DNA of 64,000 nt from a virus: positions 1 to 64,000 of the IMG/VR virus record IMGVR_UViG_3300028840_004170. One strand, written 5' to 3'. The translations under genes and the position numbers were made by a program. Under the pieces are notes generated by a model, which had not been told where the DNA came from, did not search any database, and saw only the letters and a list, made by a program, of their open reading frames with translations. Shown here piece by piece: positions 12-34,584 of this stretch. How positions within the stretch are numbered: the stretch's first letter is position 1; every line of letters begins with the position of its first letter.

Positions 12-434
12 TTGATCAATCGATTTAACAGGGGCAAAAAGTTCCAAGATGAACGCTCGTTAGATCAGATGATTGAGGATGTGCCACGGACTCTATATAG
101 AAGTGAGCAGGCACAAATCAATCCTCAACGATTTTTCCAGATGTCCCACCAACTAAATCAATTTGAAACATGGCTCTCAGAAAATGACCCTGAACTTATG
201 CCATACTATGAGATGTTGAAGGAAGGATATAGCTACAATCAGATATGTAAGAAGCACAAAGTTCCTTCGTACACGATACGAGATCGGATCAAGAAAGCTA
301 TAAAAGACTTTCAGATGGTGATCTTCCCCCTTAGTGAGCTGAAAGTTGGTGGTGAAAAGACAAGAGTCAAAATGGTTAGTTTAGAAGAGAGAAGTGACAC
401 ACACTTTGGTAGAAGGTTTATTCTTCTGACTTGA
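12..434 (+). CDS. Small HTH protein, sigma-region-4-like; 5' end uncertain
   Basis: A 140-residue protein read from a TTG at position 12. No in-frame stop lies between it and the window edge, so the real start may be upstream. Residues about 70-98 form a helix-turn-helix: the segment YSYNQICKKHKVPSYTIRDR resembles sigma region 4 and response-regulator HTHs (turn around KHKVPS). The type of domain is shared with the two regulators at 10.3-11.7 kb. It runs rightward and its last 17 bases overlap the end of the leftward chaperonin gene, so the pair is convergent. Probably a DNA-binding regulator; the target is unknown. Confidence 0.5.
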   Translation: MINRFNRGKKFQDERSLDQMIEDVPRTLYRSEQAQINPQRFFQMSHQLNQFETWLSENDPELMPYYEMLKEGYSYNQICKKHKVPSYTIRDRIKKAIKDFQMVIFPLSELKVGGEKTRVKMVSLEERSDTHFGRRFILLT

Positions 435-1986
435 CTATAGCAGCCTCAGTAGTTAGTAAAAGACCCCCTATAGACACAGCATTCCTTAAAGCTTCAATCA
501 CTACATTTGCAGGATCTAACACAGTATCCAGATGTTCAAATTGTCCTGTTTGGGCATTGAAACCCCAGAAATAATCATCATTCTTCATAAGCTCCATAAC
601 AACTTCAGAGCCATCTTTCCCAGCATTCTCAGCTATTTTCCGTAACGGTATTTCAAGAACCTTACGAATAATATTGAACCCTGGTTCTTCACCTTCAAGA
701 CATAGCTTTGTATCGAGCATAGAACCTGATCTGAATAGAGCTACCCCACCACCAGGCAACACACCACTATCTACAGCAGCCTGAGTAGCATTCAAGGCAT
801 CTTCAACACGAGCTTTCTTTTCTTTGAGTTCAATTTCTGTAGCAGCACCTACATAAATGACCCCCACACCACCCACTAACCTACCTAACCGGTCTTGGAA
901 CCTTTCAATGTCGAACTCACTCCATGCTGACCTGATCTGACCTTTGATTTCATGCATCCTTTGCTCAATCTGATCCATATCCCCCTTAGCACCAATGATT
1001 AGAGTGTCTTTCCTGGTGATTACAACTTTATCTGCTTGTCCCAGGTCAGAAATAGTTAGGTTGGGAAGAGCTATTCCGAGGTCCTTGGTGGCAAATGTAG
1101 CCCCCGTCATGATTGCTATGTCACTGATCACATCTCTTTTCTTATCTCCCACACCTGGACCTTTAATAGCACAACTGACAAGAATTTCTTTACGGTGATT
1201 AAGAATTAAGGTTTGGAGAGCTTCCTTGACTACATCATCTGCTACGATTAGTAATGGTCTGTCAGTTTCAGCTACCTCATTGAGCACATTAGCCATAGTA
1301 TGGAGACTTGATATTTTCTGGTCCGTAACCAGAATATAAGGTTTCTCCAACTCTACCTTGACATCATCTTTCAGGAAATCAGAGGAAAGATACCCTTGAT
1401 CTATCTTGATCCCTTCGATGATCTTCAGTGAAGAGTCAATAGATTGGGATTCCTCCACTGTAATCACCCCATCTTGCCCTATCTTGTCCAACGCTTCAGC
1501 AATCATACCTCCAATTTCTTCATCACCATTGGAAGAAATAAGAGCTACTTGATATATATCTTTGGGGTCTTTGACTTGCTTTGTTTTCTCTCTAAGATCC
1601 TTTACAACTAGATCTACAGCTCGTCTCATTCCAGCACGGATCATATTTGGGTCATGACCTGCTACAACTAATTTAATACCTTCTTTGACAATGAACTGAG
1701 CTAGTATTGTAGCAGTGGTAGTACCATCTCCAGTAGTATCAGAACTTTTAGATGCCACTTCACGAATCAACCTACATCCCAAGTCTTGGAACTTGTCTTC
1801 CAGTTCTATCTCCTTAGCAACAGTCACACCATCCTTAGTGACCGTTGGGGTAGCAAAACTCTTGTCATATATAACATGTCTCCCCTTTGGGCCAAGAGTG
1901 ACTCCCACAGTCTTAGCAAATAAGTCAATTCCTTCAGATATCTGTGATAGAGCGTCTTGAGAGAATTTGATTTCTTTAGCGGACAT
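418..1986 (-). CDS. groEL: GroEL-family chaperonin (Cpn60)
   Basis: A 522-residue ATP-dependent protein-folding chaperonin, full length for the family except for the C-terminal tail. The nucleotide-site motifs are intact: TLGPKGR near residue 30, TKDG near 50, GDGTTTA near 87, and EKKARVEDALNAT with its catalytic Asp near 390, followed by GVLPGGG. Apical-domain sequence GYLSSDF matches the region that binds substrate and GroES. The GGM-repeat tail is absent; the protein ends AAIVKSEE. The start is an ATG with GGAGG six bases upstream. No GroES-like gene is visible in the window. It probably folds a phage protein such as the capsid protein, either alone or with host GroES. Divergent from the HU-like gene. 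Confidence 0.95.
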   Translation of the reverse strand: MSAKEIKFSQDALSQISEGIDLFAKTVGVTLGPKGRHVIYDKSFATPTVTKDGVTVAKEIELEDKFQDLGCRLIREVASKSSDTTGDGTTTATILAQFIVKEGIKLVVAGHDPNMIRAGMRRAVDLVVKDLREKTKQVKDPKDIYQVALISSNGDEEIGGMIAEALDKIGQDGVITVEESQSIDSSLKIIEGIKIDQGYLSSDFLKDDVKVELEKPYILVTDQKISSLHTMANVLNEVAETDRPLLIVADDVVKEALQTLILNHRKEILVSCAIKGPGVGDKKRDVISDIAIMTGATFATKDLGIALPNLTISDLGQADKVVITRKDTLIIGAKGDMDQIEQRMHEIKGQIRSAWSEFDIERFQDRLGRLVGGVGVIYVGAATEIELKEKKARVEDALNATQAAVDSGVLPGGGVALFRSGSMLDTKLCLEGEEPGFNIIRKVLEIPLRKIAENAGKDGSEVVMELMKNDDYFWGFNAQTGQFEHLDTVLDPANVVIEALRNAVSIGGLLLTTEAAIVKSEE

Positions 1987-24702: not shown

Positions 24703-26643
24703 TCAATTATTTTTTTGTATCTCACCATTTTGGTATAGAATTTCTATAATTCTCTTACCTAATAATGAATTTCTTTGAATAGGTTTATTGTTCTGAATGG
24801 CTTTCCCGATAGCTTTTTTCTCCCCTAACAGAATAAGTTTTTTCCTAGCTCTCGTGATCCCTGTATATAGAAGATTTCGTTGTAACAATGGGAAGAAACT
24901 CATCACCAATGGAAGGATGATATAGTCAAATTCAAGACCTTGTATTTTGTGTACCGTAATAGCATAGGCCAGTTTCATACCCATTGTGTGGAGAGCATCG
25001 TCATTTGTTTTCAAATGAAGATATCTGAATGGCTTGAAAATCTTGATTACAATTTCTTTTGTCTTGAAATCTATAGACCTTATCTTACCAATATCTCCAT
25101 TGTAGACCTGTAACTTATACATATTTTTAGTGATAATTATACGATCCCCCACTCGAAATCGAATACCACCAATAGTCATTTCCTTTTTGTCTTTTGAAGC
25201 TGGATTTAGAGAATCTCTCAGATGTTCATTTAGAGAGTCTACACCAACATCACCACGATACATTGGAGCTATGACTTGAAAATCTTTTTCATCTTTAAAT
25301 AGCTTTTGAGAAGCTTTTATGATGAAATCTCTAAGCTCAACCTGATCTGATCCACTGATATACATGAAATCAGCAGGCTTCTTATCTGTGATAGTGATGC
25401 TCTGACCTTTATTGATTCTATGAGCATTCAAAACAATATCAGAAGCCTCTTCTTGACGGAAAATCTCAGTTAAAGATACTGTGGGGATTTGTTTGGACCC
25501 TATTAATTCTCTCAACACGTTTCCTGGGCCAACACTAGGTAGCTGAGCTGTATCCCCAATCAATATAAGACGGGTGTTGGTATCAATAGCTGCTAATAAG
25601 TGGTAGAACACAACTTGATCTACCATTGACACCTCGTCAACAATGACAACTTTTGTACTATACTTTCGGTGCTCATTATACTCCCAATGACCACCTCGGT
25701 ATTCCAAAGCTCTATGTATAGTGAACGCATCTAATTGAGTCATTTCCTGGAGATTTTTTGCAGCCACTCCAGTAGGAGTAAGTAGTAAAGGGTCCTCACC
25801 AAGAATATTTTTGAACATGCTACACAAGCATTTAGTGAGGGTTGTCTTTCCAGTACCAGGTAGTCCAGTAAGAATAAATGAATTGTTTTCTAAAGCCATA
25901 TGCACAGCTTGATTTTGATTCTCAGAAAATTGAATACCCTCTCTTTTTTGGAAATTATCTATAAATTGTGTGATGTCTAGATCTTCAGTTCTTTTATAGA
26001 TCAAATCACACATCATCTCTGAGGATCGCTTTTCAACATTGTAAGCCCATCCGCTGTAAACCATATTATGGTCTAGCACCACAGTTTCTAGAGAATCATT
26101 TTTGATCATCTTCATTAGGTCATCTAGAGAGAATTTGAGATTCAAATTATCACAGACTTTTGACAACACACTTTCTTGAGATAAATATAGATGCCCTGAT
26201 GATGAGGCTTGAGACAAGATATGTTTGACATATCCAAGAATACGAACCGGAGAATCTTCTTTCAGACCAATTTCATTTAAAGCAATATGGTCAATCTTTT
26301 TGAATTGCACCCTACCAAACCCAATCAAAATATATGGGTTCTCGAACAGGTTATTGAGAGAGGGAAGTTTCTGATGCTTGTCATGAAAAGCATAGAGAGC
26401 ATTCTTAGCTACTTTGTAGGAGAACCCCCATCCCATGATAAGGAAAATCTCAGGACTAAATGATTCAATGTAACTCCAATATTGGAGTACACTTCTTGGT
26501 CCTCTAAGAGTTTTATGGTTCTGAGTGATAAGTTCGTAAGGACCTCGATACTTACCAAAATTGATTTGATTGAAAGATGATGGAGGTATCTTTACGATCT
26601 CCTCCATCCAGGTCTTCAGACCATTTGCTATCTCAAGTTCCAT
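24703..26643 (-). CDS. RecD-like SF1 DNA helicase
   Basis: 646 residues from the ATG at 26643, overlapping the reductase stop (TAATG) with AGGA eight bases upstream. The N-terminal 230 residues are helical, as in RecD2. Helicase motifs are clear: Q-like FSENQNQAVH, motif I LTGLPGTGKTT, Ia LLLTPTGVAAKNL, II VVIVDEVSMVD, III LILIGDTAQLPSVGPG, IV LTEIFRQ, V-VI AYAITVHKIQGLEFDYIILP and LLYTGITRARKKLILLG. A 5'-3' helicase probably used in replication restart or recombination. No replicative DnaB-type helicase is visible in the window. Confidence 0.93.
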   Translation of the reverse strand: MELEIANGLKTWMEEIVKIPPSSFNQINFGKYRGPYELITQNHKTLRGPRSVLQYWSYIESFSPEIFLIMGWGFSYKVAKNALYAFHDKHQKLPSLNNLFENPYILIGFGRVQFKKIDHIALNEIGLKEDSPVRILGYVKHILSQASSSGHLYLSQESVLSKVCDNLNLKFSLDDLMKMIKNDSLETVVLDHNMVYSGWAYNVEKRSSEMMCDLIYKRTEDLDITQFIDNFQKREGIQFSENQNQAVHMALENNSFILTGLPGTGKTTLTKCLCSMFKNILGEDPLLLTPTGVAAKNLQEMTQLDAFTIHRALEYRGGHWEYNEHRKYSTKVVIVDEVSMVDQVVFYHLLAAIDTNTRLILIGDTAQLPSVGPGNVLRELIGSKQIPTVSLTEIFRQEEASDIVLNAHRINKGQSITITDKKPADFMYISGSDQVELRDFIIKASQKLFKDEKDFQVIAPMYRGDVGVDSLNEHLRDSLNPASKDKKEMTIGGIRFRVGDRIIITKNMYKLQVYNGDIGKIRSIDFKTKEIVIKIFKPFRYLHLKTNDDALHTMGMKLAYAITVHKIQGLEFDYIILPLVMSFFPLLQRNLLYTGITRARKKLILLGEKKAIGKAIQNNKPIQRNSLLGKRIIEILYQNGEIQKNN

Positions 26644-29273
26644 TATGAACATCCTAATGAGTTACCACAATTTGGACACCGATAACAAGTTCCGTTTGGA
26701 GTAGTGAGGAACCCACAATTAGGACAAGGAGGCCCATCAGAAATGGTACTTGTCTGCAAGGCTGGTAATTCCTCTACTGGCTCATCCTTCAGTTCTGCTT
26801 CAACATGAGTATGGTCATCAGAATAGAAGTATGACTTCAACCATCTGAAAATGTAATCAAGAATGGATTTTGCAAACTGTATATCTGAGTTTTTGGTCCA
26901 ACCTTGAGGCTCAAATCTGGTGTTCTCAAACTTGGTTATAAATGCATCTAAGGGGACTCCATACTGAAGACCAAGACTCACGGCAATCCCAAAATTGTCC
27001 ATGAGACCATTTATAGTAGACCCTGCCTTTGCCATACGGATAAATAACTCCCCTGGTGATCCATCTTCAAAAAGACCTACGTGAATATACCCTTTGTGTC
27101 CGATTATATCGAATTTGTGTCGAATAGTTTTGATCTCATCTGGCAAGTTTCGTCTAAGGGGCTTCAAGGCAGCTCTTTTCTTACCTTTTGTCTTGGACAT
27201 CAAGGGCTGGAAAATTTTGGAACCTTGTCTATAAACAGCTATAGATTTCAGACCCATTTTCCAAGCGTCTAGATATATATCCTTGATCTCTTCTATTGTG
27301 ACGTTTTCAGGCAAGTTGACAGTCTTGCTGATAGCACCACTAAGGAATGGTTGGACGGCTGCCATCATCCTGATATGACCCATAGGCTCTATGCATCTAT
27401 TATTGAGAGGGATAGCACAATCAAATATTGGCAGGTGTTTCTCAAGAAGCCCAGGTGCTCCTTCTATGTATCCATTCTCAAGAACGTAGTCTTGGATTTT
27501 CTTGATCTCATCATTTTTATAATGGAGAGTCTTCAGAGCTAATGGAATAACAGGATTCACTAATTGCATAGCCCCACCACCAACAAGAACCTTACTTTTC
27601 ACCAAAGCAATGTCAGGTTCTACTCCTGTGGTTGCCACATCCATCATGAATCCAATAGTTCCTGTAGGAGCAAGCAGAGTGACTTGACTGTTACGAATCC
27701 CATGCTTGTTACACTTTGACACTACCGAATTCCAAGTATCAAGACTGATCTCTAACAAGTCTTCAATAGGATCTTCTCCTATGATTTTCTTATGGGCTCT
27801 TATGTGCTTGTTCATCACTTTGATGAAAGGTTGTTTGTTGAGTTCCCATTCCTGAAATGGTTCTTTTAGAACGGCAATATCAGCACTGAAATCATATGCC
27901 GTTGAAGTCATGAGACTAGTAATTGCAGCAGCAATGCTTCGAGAAAAATCTGAGTCATAAGGATGACCCAAAGCCATAAGAGCACCACCAAGATTGGCAT
28001 ACCCCAAACCCAATTGACGATATTTCCTGGCTCCCTCAGTTATTTTTGGTGTGGGATAAGAAGCCCGGTCAATTAAAATCTCTTGAGCTAGAATAGTCAC
28101 CTGTACTGCATGTCGGAAAGCTTCAATGTCAAAAAATTTCTCTTTATCCAAAGAGACAAACTTCATAAGATTCAATGAAGCAAGATTACAAGCACTATCA
28201 TTAAGAGACATAAATTCACTACAAGGATTGGAAGCTACAATCTCACCAGAATTGGCTAGTGTATTCCAATCATTGATAGTGGTATGGTACTGAACACCAG
28301 GGTCACCACAAATATGTGCTGCTTTCGCTATGTCCCCTAGAATCTCAGAAGCTTTGTACTTAGGACCTTTCTTCCCACTGACTACCTCTTTTGTATACCA
28401 ATTACCATCATTCTTGACAGCTCGGAAAAACTCATTTGGGATACGTACTGAGTTGTTACCATTCTGGAAGTAAGTATGATTATAGACGTGTTCAAAATTG
28501 GCTTCACCATCTCGGATCAATTCTTGGAGACGTTTTTCTTCAAGAGCTTTGCACCAAATGAATTCCTCAACATCTGGATGCCCTACATCCAAAATGATCA
28601 TCTTGGCAGCACGACGTAATCTCCCACCACTTTTGATGACACCAGCAAAAGCATCAAAACCTTTCATGAAAGATACAGGACCAGAAGCTATACCTCCTTT
28701 TGATAGAGGCTCCGTTGAAGACCTGAGGACAGAAAAATTGGTCCCTGTCCCACCCCCGTTTTGAAAGATACGAGCCTCGTTGGAGACAAGTTCCATAATA
28801 GAACCCATTGAATCTTCCAAACCTTGAATGAAGCAAGCAGAGATCATAGGCTCTTCATCTAGCCCTATGTTGAAGAACACTGGGCTATTAAAAGCCATGA
28901 CTTGATTGTAGATCATATACATAAGTTCATTACAAAATACATCTGCCTCATCTTCATCTAGATATTCACCTTCAATAGCCCATTTACGAATCGTACCACA
29001 AACTCGTTCAGCTAGTTCTTTTAGGCTTTTCTCTTCATTTTTAGCTCTGCTTGTTTTTGCAAAGTATTTCTCAGAAACTATGTTGATAGCTTGCTGACTC
29101 CAAAACTGAGGATAGGAAACCCCTTTCTGTTGGAATATTGCATTGCCATCTTTGTCTTTTACTTCTGCATTTTTCTTTTCCCATTTTATGCCTGCATCTG
29201 GTTTCCCACCTTTACAGAAAAAAGACTCCACTTTCATTTTCGTAGTATCACCAGATACCTCTAAACTTATCAT
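26643..29273 (-). CDS. nrdJ: Adenosylcobalamin-dependent (class II) ribonucleotide reductase
   Basis: 876 residues from the ATG at 29273 (GGAGG seven bases upstream). A longer frame into the delta gene lacks a ribosome site. It makes deoxyribonucleotides from ribonucleotides. Visible features are FNSPVFFNIGL, the redox Cys in MISACFIQG, QNGGGTGTNFS, GGRLRRAAKM, and the finger loop NPCSEFMSLNDSACNLASLNL with its thiyl-radical Cys and the second redox Cys. APTGTIGFMMD follows. The C-terminal Cys-rich module (CPNCG... CYRCPNCG) is typical of NrdJ. No NrdB or NrdG partner is present, as expected for class II. The cofactor must come from the host. Confidence 0.93.
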   Translation of the reverse strand: MISLEVSGDTTKMKVESFFCKGGKPDAGIKWEKKNAEVKDKDGNAIFQQKGVSYPQFWSQQAINIVSEKYFAKTSRAKNEEKSLKELAERVCGTIRKWAIEGEYLDEDEADVFCNELMYMIYNQVMAFNSPVFFNIGLDEEPMISACFIQGLEDSMGSIMELVSNEARIFQNGGGTGTNFSVLRSSTEPLSKGGIASGPVSFMKGFDAFAGVIKSGGRLRRAAKMIILDVGHPDVEEFIWCKALEEKRLQELIRDGEANFEHVYNHTYFQNGNNSVRIPNEFFRAVKNDGNWYTKEVVSGKKGPKYKASEILGDIAKAAHICGDPGVQYHTTINDWNTLANSGEIVASNPCSEFMSLNDSACNLASLNLMKFVSLDKEKFFDIEAFRHAVQVTILAQEILIDRASYPTPKITEGARKYRQLGLGYANLGGALMALGHPYDSDFSRSIAAAITSLMTSTAYDFSADIAVLKEPFQEWELNKQPFIKVMNKHIRAHKKIIGEDPIEDLLEISLDTWNSVVSKCNKHGIRNSQVTLLAPTGTIGFMMDVATTGVEPDIALVKSKVLVGGGAMQLVNPVIPLALKTLHYKNDEIKKIQDYVLENGYIEGAPGLLEKHLPIFDCAIPLNNRCIEPMGHIRMMAAVQPFLSGAISKTVNLPENVTIEEIKDIYLDAWKMGLKSIAVYRQGSKIFQPLMSKTKGKKRAALKPLRRNLPDEIKTIRHKFDIIGHKGYIHVGLFEDGSPGELFIRMAKAGSTINGLMDNFGIAVSLGLQYGVPLDAFITKFENTRFEPQGWTKNSDIQFAKSILDYIFRWLKSYFYSDDHTHVEAELKDEPVEELPALQTSTISDGPPCPNCGFLTTPNGTCYRCPNCGNSLGCS

Positions 29274-30151
29274 GCTAGTTCCTCCAATAAAAACGACCGT
29301 AATAATATATAGCCATCTAATCCTGTATATTTCATACCTATATCTAATTGGCACAACCTTTTATGCCAACTCAGTAACTTAGGCAAGGTTATTTTTGAAG
29401 ATAGCTCTTGTAGTTTTGTTAGGAAATACGGATGGGCATTTAACTGACCTGCAAGTTCTTTGATTTCCCCTCCACGAGCCATGAATGATTTTATATATAT
29501 AACTTTCTCAACAGCTTCCAAAAAGAAAGCCAAGATTTGCAATGGAGGTATTTCTTGATGTTCTAGATTAAGAAAAGTCTTGAGTGTGGTTTCTCTTTTT
29601 CTGAGGAAATCATTAAATAAATCTAGAGTTGTCTTTTTCTTTGGGTTGCCAATCCACTTGAGATCCTTTTGTAGAATCTTACCAGCAGTTTTGAAATGAT
29701 TCCCCAACTTGACTAATTCAGAGTGTGTTTGATAGAGATCTCCCCTATCCAGACGTTCTGCTAAATACATATATTCATCTTCAGATAACGAGATACCAAA
29801 TTCCTTCAAGACACCTCTAATGAATACTACAAATCTTTCTTCATTGAGGTCATTGCATTTGAATGTATTTTCTTGAGGTACTTTTTCTGGTATGTGTTCG
29901 AGATACCCCCTGTTAGTCACAGCCCAAACAATGTGATGATTTTCCAACTTTATTTTCTTGAGCACGTCGTAACTTATCTTACGGACATCACAAAAAATTA
30001 TGATCTTCTTGAGAGGACTGCTTTTGATTAGGAAATAGATCTCATTAGGGTCCTCTTTTTGGATAACTGTGTCAATACCGGTACGATCTTGGATCATCTC
30101 CAAGATTTTCATTCTCAAGAATTCGTTTGTACCTATCAGACACCAATGCAT
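29270..30151 (-). CDS. holA: DNA polymerase III delta-like clamp-loader subunit
   Basis: 293 residues from the ATG at 30151 (TAATG on the delta' stop). The N-terminal Rossmann-like part has WCLIGTNEF, KKIIIFCDVR and VWAVTN but no Walker A, as in HolA. The C-terminal third fits the family: QILAFFLEAVEKVIYIKSFM, LAGQLNAHPYFLTKL, then KRLCQLDIGMKYTGLDGYIL (family: aDxxiKtG). In bacteria delta opens the sliding clamp. Its partner delta' is the adjacent upstream gene. The stop overlaps the reductase start (ATGA). Confidence 0.75.
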   Translation of the reverse strand: MHWCLIGTNEFLRMKILEMIQDRTGIDTVIQKEDPNEIYFLIKSSPLKKIIIFCDVRKISYDVLKKIKLENHHIVWAVTNRGYLEHIPEKVPQENTFKCNDLNEERFVVFIRGVLKEFGISLSEDEYMYLAERLDRGDLYQTHSELVKLGNHFKTAGKILQKDLKWIGNPKKKTTLDLFNDFLRKRETTLKTFLNLEHQEIPPLQILAFFLEAVEKVIYIKSFMARGGEIKELAGQLNAHPYFLTKLQELSSKITLPKLLSWHKRLCQLDIGMKYTGLDGYILLRSFLLEELA

Positions 30152-31005
30152 TATTTTCTCAGCTCTATCTTTGCATCTACCACAGCTTGAAAGAAATGAT
30201 GCCAAGCTCTAACACTAGGGTATCTCTTCATAGTCTGGTAGAATTGATTTAAATGGTTATAGATAACGAGTAGGTCTTGACTACCTCTTTTCTCTTCTAT
30301 CAATGAAAGTCTTTCTTGGACATATGGAGAGGATTCTGTGAAATGAAGATGCAGTACAAACAACACCCAATGGATTAAATCTCCAAGATCTGTCTCTCGT
30401 ACTTTAAGAAGATTCAGTAACGTCTCTTTTTCAAAAAAACTCTCTATGAACAATATAGCTCTTTCCTGTTCCACACGACTTTTGTTAAGTTGGAACAGTG
30501 GTATTCCACCATACTCTGCTTCTGATGTTGGTGGTATATAAATTTCCCAGCATCGAGATCGAAGAGTGGGGATAACTTCTGTGTGGTAAGGAGTGAGGAA
30601 AAGAAACAGATTGTAAGGCTTTACATCCTCTACTATTTTCAAAAAAACATCGCTTCCCTCAGGGGTGATTTTATCAGCTTGGTCTATGACAATAGCTCTG
30701 ACTTTAGAGGCTAGTGGTGGCTTACTGACAGCAGCAGAAATCTCTCGAATATCATTTACACCCCAAGACTTCTTTTCTAATTCATAGAGAATGTAATCTT
30801 CTCTAGGTATTGATATGCAAGAAGCACATTCACATTTTGAACTTTGATTACCTTCACAATTGGCATATTTGAATATGAGCCTGGAGAAAAGTTGCTTCCC
30901 CATGCCTTCTTCACCAGTGAGAATAAGAGGATGAAAGGTGCCTTCTCTGACATAACTTGTCAGAAATGCTCGGACACCATCTCTTTCCCAAATCTCACCA
31001 AACAT
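30151..31005 (-). CDS. holB: DNA polymerase III delta'-like clamp-loader subunit
   Basis: 284 residues. AAA+ features: LILTGEEGMGKQLFSR (P-loop 31-37), a four-Cys zinc module (50, 58, 60, 63; KCECASC), VRAIVIDQADKIT as a degenerate Walker B, and RSRCWEI as the SRC motif. A helical collar domain follows. The modified P-loop end (GKQ) suggests weak or no ATP use, as in delta'. It is coupled to the delta-like gene downstream. A DnaX homologue lies in the same operon at 12.2-13.6 kb. Confidence 0.82.
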   Translation of the reverse strand: MFGEIWERDGVRAFLTSYVREGTFHPLILTGEEGMGKQLFSRLIFKYANCEGNQSSKCECASCISIPREDYILYELEKKSWGVNDIREISAAVSKPPLASKVRAIVIDQADKITPEGSDVFLKIVEDVKPYNLFLFLTPYHTEVIPTLRSRCWEIYIPPTSEAEYGGIPLFQLNKSRVEQERAILFIESFFEKETLLNLLKVRETDLGDLIHWVLFVLHLHFTESSPYVQERLSLIEEKRGSQDLLVIYNHLNQFYQTMKRYPSVRAWHHFFQAVVDAKIELRK

Positions 31006-31048: not shown

Positions 31049-31633
31049 TTAAATTATTTCTAAACGCTCAGCTAAATTCTTTGTCTTTGGAGCAAAATAG
31101 TTGAAGAATCGTTTCTTTTCGGCAGGATTCCTCAAGACATAGGAAGGATGATACATAATGAAGACATGAAATCTCCCAGCTCTATAAATTTTGCCAGCTA
31201 TATGTGTAATTTTTTGTTTCTCTTTAAATTGCATCAAAGTCTGGACTACATCTGATCCCATAAGGATCAGAATCTTTGCCTTGTCAAAAAATTCCAGTTC
31301 TTTTCGGAGATGTACTTTACAGGACTCAATCTCTGTCTGAGTAGGAGGTCGATTTCCAGGAGTGAAACATTTTACCATATTCACTATCCCAACTTGGTTT
31401 CTTTTGTAACCAACCTTCCCCATCCACTCATTCAGAAGCTGCCCAGAACGTCCCACAAAGGGCCTGGTGAAACGATCTTCATCGTTACCAGGGTTACGAC
31501 CCACAAAAATGATTTTGGCATCCTGAGGGCCTTCTCCTCGAACAGGACTAACCACGTCTTGATAAAGTGGACAGAGCTGACAAGAAGCTATCTCTGTGGC
31601 AATAGAACTATCTTGGATCAGAGGTGTGTCCAT
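31049..31633 (-). CDS. Family-4 uracil-DNA glycosylase (iron-sulphur)
   Basis: 194 residues from the ATG at 31633 (GGGAG five bases upstream); an earlier ATG at 31645 is only poorly served. It removes uracil from DNA. The iron-sulphur Cys are at 18, 21, 89 and 105 (SCQLC and KCFTPGNRPPTQTEIESC). The active-site segments are IIFVGRNPGNDEDRFTRPFVGRSG, given here by its key parts VGRNPG and RPFVG, and the HPSYVLRNP motif near the end. The usual family motif 1 is GEAPG-E; here GRNPGNDED. Probably protects a phage genome made of ordinary T-DNA. Confidence 0.88.
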   Translation of the reverse strand: MDTPLIQDSSIATEIASCQLCPLYQDVVSPVRGEGPQDAKIIFVGRNPGNDEDRFTRPFVGRSGQLLNEWMGKVGYKRNQVGIVNMVKCFTPGNRPPTQTEIESCKVHLRKELEFFDKAKILILMGSDVVQTLMQFKEKQKITHIAGKIYRAGRFHVFIMYHPSYVLRNPAEKKRFFNYFAPKTKNLAERLEII

Positions 31634-31890
31634 GCACACTCCCATCCTTTAGGTTTCAGAGTAGCTCTCTGCACGAATCCTTTTTGACTGATTTCATTTG
31701 AAATCTTCTCAACATAGAATGGACCTTTAACTTCTGCTATTCGATGTCTAGGTGGGGAACCATCATCTGGCTGATATTGTGATTTGAAAGAAAACCCATC
31801 TTCAAAATGAATCAACCATTTGGGTCTAAGAGAATCTGTCTTTGTTTCTACTTCTAAATTCAGGTCAGGTATCACATAAATTGTCTTCAA
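31618..31890 (-). CDS. Hypothetical protein, first leftward gene of the replication arm
   Basis: 90 residues from a TTG at 31890 with AGGGAGAG about eight bases upstream; an ATG between them is in another frame and reaches a stop quickly. The sequence is beta-rich (IYVIPDLNLEV, PKWLIHFEDGFSFKSQY, IAEVKGPFYVEK) with a basic end. No family recognised. It overlaps the glycosylase by 16 bases. It is the first gene after the structured non-coding region, so it may be expressed through that leader. Confidence 0.6.
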   Translation of the reverse strand: MKTIYVIPDLNLEVETKTDSLRPKWLIHFEDGFSFKSQYQPDDGSPPRHRIAEVKGPFYVEKISNEISQKGFVQRATLKPKGWECAWTHL

Positions 31891-31910
31891 GATACATCTC
31901 TCCCTTTAGG

Positions 31911-32457
31911 AACGGGAGGAATTCTTGAAGAATTTGAGAGATCTCGTTCCCCTCAACCCCTTCCTAAATGTCATGCTAGCTGAAGTTATCCAGCTAGACG
32001 AACACTCATAAGTGTTCGGGTTTCATATTGTTTTTTATACCATCGTCGTTATATATGCTCTCTTTTCTGTTCCTTCCAGTGGTGTTTTTGTTTTCAAGGC
32101 TTCTGTTGTTGTTGGCTGCCCAAATTTCTGCTCGGATGTGCCTCTCATGAACTTATAAGAGGGAAGAGACATACTTGGCCCGACTCCAACCAGCGAAATG
32201 CTGGGGCTAGTAAGGGCTGAGAGCCCACCGGTAGGCCGGTGGCAGCAAACAGCAGGGCATCTCCCAGACCATCGGGACGTAAATCTAACCTTCCCTGGTA
32301 CTAGTAGGCCAGTAGTCAGGGCATTTTTACGTTGATGGCAGATAAACTGGAAGTTTGGACATGAAACTCTTGACTTGCTAGAAGACTGTTTACCCTCAGC
32401 GGTAAGATTCAAACGACCTTTTTTCACTTTTTGAATCCCCTCCTAATCAAGCCAATT
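31911..32457 (-). ncRNA. Candidate large structured RNA or long structured leader
   Basis: About 550 bases, visibly richer in GC than both flanks, downstream of a strong leftward promoter. Inverted repeats crowd it: GATTCAAA (32407-32414) with its complement ending at 32436; ACGTAAA/TTTACGT (32277-32331) enclosing a CCCTG-ACTA/TAGT-CAGGG stem; CCACCGG-loop-CCGGTGG (32225-32242); CCAGC/GCTGG (32190-32204); CTAGCTG/CAGCTAG (31976-31997); GAACACT/AGTGTTC (32000-32017); GGAACG/CGTTCC near 31911-31950. It may be an independent phage RNA of the GOLLD/ROOL kind, or a cis-acting leader for the first gene. No Rfam class could be assigned by eye. Confidence 0.5.
32035..32427 (-). CDS. Doubtful 130-residue reading frame inside the structured RNA
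   Basis: A GTG at 32427 is preceded by a perfect AGGAGGGG at a 9-base spacing and sits about 30 bases after the predicted transcript start, so gene-like signals exist. The product, however, is Ser/Thr/Pro/Cys-rich (CPAVCCHRPTGG, SMSLPSYK) with none of the charged-helix character of the other proteins here. The DNA is dominated by stem-loops. More likely an RNA with an incidental frame, or a short translated upstream frame. Confidence 0.22.
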   Translation of the reverse strand: MKKGRLNLTAEGKQSSSKSRVSCPNFQFICHQRKNALTTGLLVPGKVRFTSRWSGRCPAVCCHRPTGGLSALTSPSISLVGVGPSMSLPSYKFMRGTSEQKFGQPTTTEALKTKTPLEGTEKRAYITTMV

Positions 32458-32463
32458 AAGGGC

Positions 32464-32491
32464 ATTATACGGATTCAAACTCCTTTGTCTA
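32464..32491 (-). promoter_or_regulatory. Strong leftward sigma70-type promoter
   Basis: On the minus strand TAGACA (32491-32486; 5 of 6 to consensus), a 16-base spacer and a perfect TATAAT (32469-32464). Predicted start near 32457. It would transcribe the structured region and then the whole leftward replication arm, including the first gene at 31890. Confidence 0.6.
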
Positions 32492-32579
32492 CAAAAAAGA
32501 TCTCATACAATTCCAGTAACTTACAACACTGGGTCTCATAACTCCCTGAACATACAACTAAAAAATTTCCCGCTTCCTA

Positions 32580-32871
32580 CCCATTTTTTTTCATTTCTTC
32601 TCCTCACCATATGTTGCCATACAGATCTTTTCGTGTACTCCCCCTTCTTCATTTATATATACTCTCTTTTCTTTTCCTCTTGTAGGTAGAAGTTAAGATC
32701 AGATCTATTTATATATATTATTATGGAGATCCAAAAATTGGAGGTAAGGAAAGTTACCTGTGTTGCAGGTAGGGAGATTTTGGGATCTGAAAAGTTACCA
32801 TACATGTATTGTAAGTGTAGAGATGAGATCCAAAAAATTGAGACCTGGATTTGTGGGTGGGGGGATGTTGA
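32580..32871. repeat. Direct-repeat, AT-rich region between the divergent arms
   Basis: Non-coding. GAGATCCAAAAATTG occurs at 32726-32740 and again, with one extra A, at 32825-32840. GAAAGTTACC occurs at 32749-32758 and as GAAAAGTTACC at 32789-32799. An AT-rich run (TTTATATATATTATTATGG) lies at 32708-32725, and a pyrimidine-rich stretch on the plus strand at 32582-32690. These could be regulator-binding sites for the divergent promoters or iterons of a replication origin. Nothing decides between them. Confidence 0.45.
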
Positions 32872-32900
32872 TTGATCTGTTTGTATTGTTAGTGTATATA
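32872..32900 (+). promoter_or_regulatory. Candidate rightward promoter of the virion arm
   Basis: TTGATC (32872-32877), a 17-base spacer, TATATA (32895-32900). A start near 32907 leaves a short leader that still contains the GAGGAGG site of the first gene. The same -35 hexamer, TTGATC, occurs in the candidate promoter at 40018. Confidence 0.45.
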
Positions 32901-34115: not shown

Positions 34116-34408
34116 TGCGTCCAGCACCTACTAATCTAAGGCTATACCCTAAAGTGAAGGATGTGAACATAGCTCTACATGCTTATTGTACCGGATGTGA
34201 AGTGGGTGTGGCATATCAGGATAGAGAAAATCAATTAAAGGACATGAAGCACCCAACAGGTGCAGTTCTTCTTGGTGAAGATGGAGACAATATCTTAAAT
34301 GATCCTACCTTGAACGAATTGAAAATGGTTTGCGACCGTTGTCTTAAATCACATTACCCTGAATTGCTGATTGCTATCCAAAACCAAATCAGTCCTTGGG
34401 AACGATGA
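34115..34408 (+). CDS. Small zinc-finger-like protein
   Basis: 97 residues from the ATG at 34115, with GGAGGAG just upstream. Two C-x-x-C pairs (YCTGC near residue 27 and VCDRC near 78) are set about 50 residues apart, the spacing of a zinc ribbon or treble clef with an insert. Otherwise acidic and unremarkable. Probably a small DNA- or protein-binding factor. ATGA overlap with the next gene. Confidence 0.62.
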   Translation: MRPAPTNLRLYPKVKDVNIALHAYCTGCEVGVAYQDRENQLKDMKHPTGAVLLGEDGDNILNDPTLNELKMVCDRCLKSHYPELLIAIQNQISPWER

Positions 34409-34584
34409 AGATCTTTGAAGTCAAAATTAATGAAGATTCCTTCCAGGTCAAGGCTAAGGAAATTTTCACAGCCACCAAAAGAGCTGTTGATCTCTATCAT
34501 GACCAAAGGAAGAAGTTGGGTCGTAGGAAAAGAATACCCAAACATATAGAACTATTCATTTCAGTCAGACATACTATCTCATAG
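34405..34584 (+). CDS. Hypothetical small basic protein
   Basis: 59 residues from the ATG at 34405. A beta start (MKIFEVKINEDSFQVKAKEI) then a helix and a Lys/Arg patch (DQRKKLGRRKRIPKHIE), suggesting nucleic-acid binding. No family recognised. Confidence 0.55.
   Translation: MKIFEVKINEDSFQVKAKEIFTATKRAVDLYHDQRKKLGRRKRIPKHIELFISVRHTIS

Follow-up and report, generated by a model that had tools for sequence, protein, structure and literature searches.

A candidate control region, and likely replication origin, between the divergent gene arms of a huge phage

Results

A probable divergent control region at the head of the replication arm

Within the 64,000-nucleotide stretch of viral DNA analysed here (the window), a gap lies between a run of 32 minus-strand genes on one side and, on the other, 18 successive plus-strand genes, the first starting at 32900 (Table 1). 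We read this gap as a divergent control region that is probably an origin region, its left half being an operator-controlled leader of about 567 nt for the replication-arm transcript with hairpins acting in cis, and we give this reading about an even chance of being right. It would be a familiar sort of locus, a probable origin and divergent control region whose leader is moderately structured. What had been taken for a possible giant RNA would, most probably, be the 5' end of the transcript of the replication genes, folded to a moderate degree. The gap and its divergent arms, the skew minimum, the promoter, the TTTGAATC triple, the AGATC cluster, the replication genes and the minus-strand folding score count in favor of this reading, as do the skew difference at four-fold sites, the skew minimum of LR745208 and the skews reported for other huge phages; the missing DnaA box, the blunt skew fits, the partial dependence of skew on gene direction, the short boundary in the relative LR745208, the post hoc choice of words and the unexceptional fold count against it. 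In the scheme that we propose, the AT-rich right half, with its AGATC cluster, repeats and skew minimum, would be the start point for replication and for both arms; the left half would be transcribed as the 5' leader from the sigma-70-type promoter under the control of TTTGAATC operators; and the leader hairpins would act in cis, either protecting the message or tuning the translation of p90 and the genes that follow. To our knowledge, the start of replication in huge phages with their own clamp loader has received little experimental study. With this locus there is a concrete origin candidate, about 1 kb long, along with the promoter and putative operators of the replication arm. It would matter more if it encoded a giant RNA, a reading that has gathered no positive evidence so far.

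Table 1. Coordinates (window positions) of the gap, its sequence elements and the neighboring genes
Feature	Position	Strand	Remarks
Gap without recognisable protein gene	31891-32899		1,009 bp; divides the replication (minus) from the structural (plus) arm
AT-rich half of gap	32462-32899		GC 0.35-0.36; AGATC x11 (1.45 expected); six RGATCY sites
26-nt direct repeat, copy 2	32653-32678		604 nt from copy 1; adjoins the GC-skew minimum
26-nt direct repeat, copy 1	32049-32074		92% identical to copy 2
Sigma-70-type promoter TAGACA-N16-TATAAT	32464-32491	-	11/12 consensus matches
Three TTTGAATC sites (putative operators)	32406-32479		32472-32479, 32430-32437 (inverted), 32406-32413
Predicted leader ahead of p90, about 567 nt	31891-32457	-	folded as 31885-32461
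130-codon frame	32035-32427	-	GTG at 32427; SD AGGAGG 32444-32439
Nested long hairpin, five stacked helices	32261-32353	-	strongest structure in the 5' half
Tandem hairpins CACCGG-CCUA-CCGGUG and GGCU-CUC-AGCC	32215-32241	-	sequence reading; similar hairpins in span-30 fold
Hairpin CCAGC-AUUUC-GCUGG	32190-32204	-	fold of the minus strand
8-bp hairpin CCUCUUAU-AAGUUC-AUGAGAGG	32141-32162	-	predicted folds
Two adjacent hairpins	31976-32018	-	31999-32018 and 31976-31997; no U-run after them on the minus strand
12-nt inverted repeat	31905-31968	-	92% complementary; lies shortly before the p90 ribosome-binding site
p90, orphan 90-aa gene	31618-31890	-	TTG start; first recognisable replication-arm gene
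Uracil-DNA glycosylase (UDG)	31049-31645	-	
DNA polymerase III delta' and delta clamp-loader subunits	29270-31005	-	
Class II ribonucleotide reductase (RNR)	26643-29354	-	

The strong leftward promoter of the original prediction was indeed present, reading from 32491 to 32464. Seven sites with at least 11/12 matches occur in a 358-kb contig (G001) that also carries the gap; only two of the seven, this one included, lie between genes, and the other is on the plus strand. From the promoter position, transcription would be expected to start near 32457. Downstream on the same strand lies the replication arm, comprising p90, UDG, delta', delta, RNR, RecD2, RecA and a gamma/tau-like clamp loader; promoter, orientation and downstream genes agree with the prediction's other option, an elaborate leader controlling the replication arm. 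Around the promoter, the three TTTGAATC copies within 74 bp form the tightest triple of that word in the 358-kb contig, the word having been chosen after the region was seen. One copy falls in the spacer between the -35 and -10 elements, upstream of the predicted start site and hence outside the RNA, so that the promoter-proximal inverted repeats suit RNA stems no better than DNA operators, and the latter is the preferable reading; the sites may well be operators that control the leftward promoter. On the minus strand, no intrinsic terminator was predicted in the interval from 32457 to the edge of p90 (31890). With the long structured 5' leaders of phage and bacterial operons the region shares a promoter, several hundred untranslated or poorly coding bases and hairpins, followed by an operon; it differs from the known ones in that no riboswitch, attenuator or ribosomal-protein leader matched it and in having no detectable minus-strand terminator inside.

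Folding of the predicted leader

When the 577 nt from 31885 to 32461 were folded, the minus strand reached -178.4 kcal/mol, where dinucleotide shuffles averaged -157.8 (sd 6.3), which gives z -3.28; none of 100 shuffles was as stable, whereas the plus strand was no better than its shuffles (z -0.80). A second folding implementation gave z -3.1 for the minus strand, with 1 of 200 shuffles as good, and just 1 or 2 of 200 shuffles matched it when pairing spans of at least 110 nt were allowed. With the span limited to 60 nt, the leader scored z -1.75, 5% of random contig segments falling below -2.85; its stability for its GC content was likewise ordinary at the 200-nt scale, and its folding was ordinary at spans of 30 and 60 nt. 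The median z of 577-nt segments in this phage is about -1, and 6 of 220 window segments of equal length were relatively more stable than the leader (about 3%, an approximate figure given the few shuffles per segment). With about 3% of such segments doing equally well, the leader does not stand out in this phage by its folding. Gaps of the 358-kb contig with z from -3.4 to -6.6 included tRNA arrays, but also stretches holding protein genes that the simple gene caller used had missed.

Among the elements of the 5' half the nested hairpin was the strongest; it is built from the helices CUUCCAG..CUGGGAG, GCCAUC-GAUGGU, ACGUAAA-UUUACGU, CCCUG-CAGGG and UACUGG-CUAGUA; taken alone it gave z -2.99, with 2 of 200 shuffles as good. 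The strongest short-range folding signal came from the hairpin cluster at 31905-32018. As had been noticed, the region is richer in GC than both flanks (0.485 at 32101-32461 against about 0.36 on either side). In this GC-richer stretch of 570 nt, described earlier as about 550 bases packed with stems, several hairpins of 5-8 bp, one of them nested, were recovered, but the fold was weaker than claimed: "crowded with inverted repeats" is a fair description, and "giant ornate RNA" is unearned from folding alone. At the other extreme, the gap could be ordinary intergenic DNA with hairpins at the chance level for this genome. A rank only in the top 3% or so of same-length segments and the unremarkable 200-nt and span-30/60 scales would suit this, but the fold is asymmetric between strands and is equaled by only 1 or 2 of 200 shuffles at spans of at least 110 nt, and of all the readings we find this one the hardest to credit.

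The 130-codon frame

A frame of 130 codons overlaps the folded region, as originally reported, and its AGGAGG is a perfect Shine-Dalgarno sequence. The frame could be a real, fast-evolving orphan gene that heads the operon, the folding being incidental except for the intercistronic hairpins at 31905-32018. A perfect AGGAGG at usable spacing precedes 10% of the large genes and 1.2% of spurious frames; a frame of at least 130 codons arose in only 3 of 400 mononucleotide shuffles; the frame scores best among the six; and the strongest short-range folding falls 3' of its stop codon. Its codon usage, however, is not that of the phage's other genes. The codon score of -0.07 lies below the first percentile of in-frame pieces (0.057) and within the out-of-frame distribution, and the frame ranks 14th lowest among 113 tiled frames of 100-165 aa; GC content by codon position (0.46/0.55/0.42) differs from every gene listed. 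The product contains no Asp among its 130 residues, where 9 would be expected, found no match in Pfam, PHROG or tblastn searches, and reached a single-sequence AlphaFold pLDDT of 34.8, compared with 56.4 for the neighboring orphan p90. The earlier impression that the product looks like translated structured RNA is therefore borne out by the codon statistics and contradicted by the perfect ribosome-binding site. On balance, we regard a real gene as possible but doubtful.

Known RNA families and relatives

Searches of Rfam at the gathering score, over the window and the 358-kb contig, returned nothing except tRNAs, tmRNA and one DUF3800-VI motif, and at a relaxed threshold the gap gave chance matches only; the covariance search proposed with the original prediction thus produced no relevant match at either setting. 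A tRNA or tmRNA inside the gap was rejected, and so was a known group I intron, which had no Rfam match. Using blastn, nhmmer and tblastn with the gap, the frame and p90 as queries against phages, IMG/VR, GTDB genomes and about 170 phage loci, we recovered identical contigs only, and in the searches run the relatives of the gap or of the frame product were limited to three identical contigs. Profile scans with UDG and the prohead protease found many relatives, none of which had the gap or its left flank. A covariance model of the core hairpin, run against 50 phage records, gave a best E value of 0.28 outside this phage, which was taken as chance, and a stem-pattern scan of IMG/VR returned only the phage's own copies. 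A search via the small protein at 34396-34584 yielded only a 5.6-kb cousin (L011), whose sequence stops short of the gap. Within the 358-kb contig there were no paralogues except the 26-nt repeat.

These results bear on the suggestion that the leader gives rise to a discrete large non-coding RNA, a new family working like GOLLD or ROOL and processed from, or terminated within, the leader. The likeness to these RNAs is that of a phage-borne element of hundreds of nucleotides with many stems and without a clear protein. Stability specific to the minus strand (0 of 100 shuffles), several tidy hairpins including nested helices, non-coding codon statistics and a strong promoter of its own would all suit such an RNA. 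Against it stand a fold only in about the top 3% for the genome, the lack of an intrinsic terminator on the minus strand from 32457 to p90, and the want of any homologue and hence of covariation. GOLLD and ROOL often lie near tRNA islands (PMC12286853). The tRNA island of this phage (G001 92-150 kb) lies about 58 kb from the gap (G001 208 kb), proximity being a tendency of GOLLD and ROOL and not a strict definition. Unlike GOLLD and ROOL, then, the leader has no Rfam match, an unexceptional fold, a place away from the tRNA island and no conserved family that could be found. With neither an Rfam match nor, by three search routes, a homologue in viral contigs, and with a fold unexceptional for the genome, the giant-RNA part of the original prediction found no support, and we consider a discrete RNA of this kind unlikely.

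Composition skew and the candidate origin

Summed along the 358-kb contig, the GC skew is lowest at G001 208444, which is window position 32679, inside the gap; this minimum comes from an open-ended contig, and the fits to the switch point are broad. GC skew follows gene direction in part. At four-fold sites, plus-strand genes had a skew of -0.16 on one side and +0.07 on the other, and minus-strand genes +0.06 and +0.26; since genes on the same strand differ between the two sides, the skew does not come from gene direction alone. A change-point fit to the four-fold GC skew was flat over 206-220 kb, with its best value at 216 kb, and the corresponding A/T fit peaked at 176 kb, so that the gap is not singled out by the skew. 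No DnaA-box-like sites were found in the gap, and a phage initiator need not use them. Lying at a turning point of strand composition, the gap is a likely replication origin.

Skew indicative of bidirectional replication has been reported in about 30% of huge phages (PMC7162821). With the bidirectional-origin regions described there, the gap shares the global skew minimum, an intergenic position and a place between divergent arms; it differs in lying on an unclosed contig, in having no DnaA boxes and in being a candidate origin read from sequence. In LR745208, a 485-kb relative, the skew minimum is at 434,960, next to a divergent boundary and 4 kb upstream of RNR, with the maximum about half a genome away. 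That boundary measures only about 250 nt, so the long leader is not conserved in LR745208. The region around it (about 431-439 kb, L265) suggests that an origin-proximal RNR arm is conserved.

The AT-rich half of the gap is marked by its AGATC copies, an excess with a probability of about 2e-4 once 512 words are allowed for, the word having been picked after the region was inspected. Its six RGATCY sites make it the tied densest 439-bp window of the 358-kb contig. The core of the 26-nt direct repeat, AAAAGAGAGNATATATAA, occurs only twice in 358 kb, both times in the gap. The density of exact 10-mer repeats was unremarkable.

ColE1 RNA II is a folded RNA of about 550 nt made from a promoter near the origin, and it works through primer processing and an antisense partner. 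The region resembles it in having a promoter and then some 550 nt of folded RNA beside a suspected origin. By analogy with RNA II or with the R-loop origins of T4, the leader might be a transcript of the origin that prepares the priming of replication through its fold. Within 800 bp the region does combine a promoter, structured RNA of 500-600 nt and the skew minimum, and the direct repeats are exclusive to the gap in the contig. However, the skew minimum is upstream of the promoter, where a primer of the RNA II type needs it downstream, and nothing is conserved in relatives; we consider priming by this transcript very improbable. A broader proposal sees here a new class of structured RNA linked to the origins of huge phages, made in this case from the origin region of a genome larger than 362 kb and controlling the start of replication or of the entire replication arm; this also seems to us improbable.

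The phage and its contigs

The window belongs to a virus record of 90 kb, DNA of which is also found in the 358-kb and in a 186-kb IMG/VR contig, identical across the 2.5 kb at the gap that were compared, and since the 186-kb contig runs 4 kb past the end of the 358-kb contig, the genome of the parent phage exceeds 362 kb. Its gene content includes about 50 tRNAs, a tmRNA, a chaperonin, RecA, RecD2, clamp-loader subunits and a class II RNR. Its prohead protease is common to a broad clade of huge phages that includes LR745208 (44% on this protein) and the acidobacterial phage Tunturi_5.

Several minor observations were made. The 90-kb and 186-kb contigs both break within 14 bases of one point, G001 175,766-175,779, corresponding to window position 1, where the 358-kb contig is continuous; strain variation or a repeat may be responsible. 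The phage-encoded GroEL-like chaperonin lies at window 418-1986 on the minus strand. Outside the window, the tRNA region (L045-L048) holds about 50 tRNA genes, which together serve all 20 amino acids, and the tmRNA, with the tag ANDNALPMAA, and within it the DUF3800-VI RNA motif (Rfam RF02915; L048:7269-7317, minus strand) scored above the gathering threshold. Finally, several intergenic gaps of the 358-kb contig, from 26 to 40 kb, at 102 kb and at 320 kb, contain a recurrent motif around CAGTATAGAATAATAGG(AGGTG), sometimes directly 5' of a start codon, which looks like a promoter/ribosome-binding cassette repeated in an early region.
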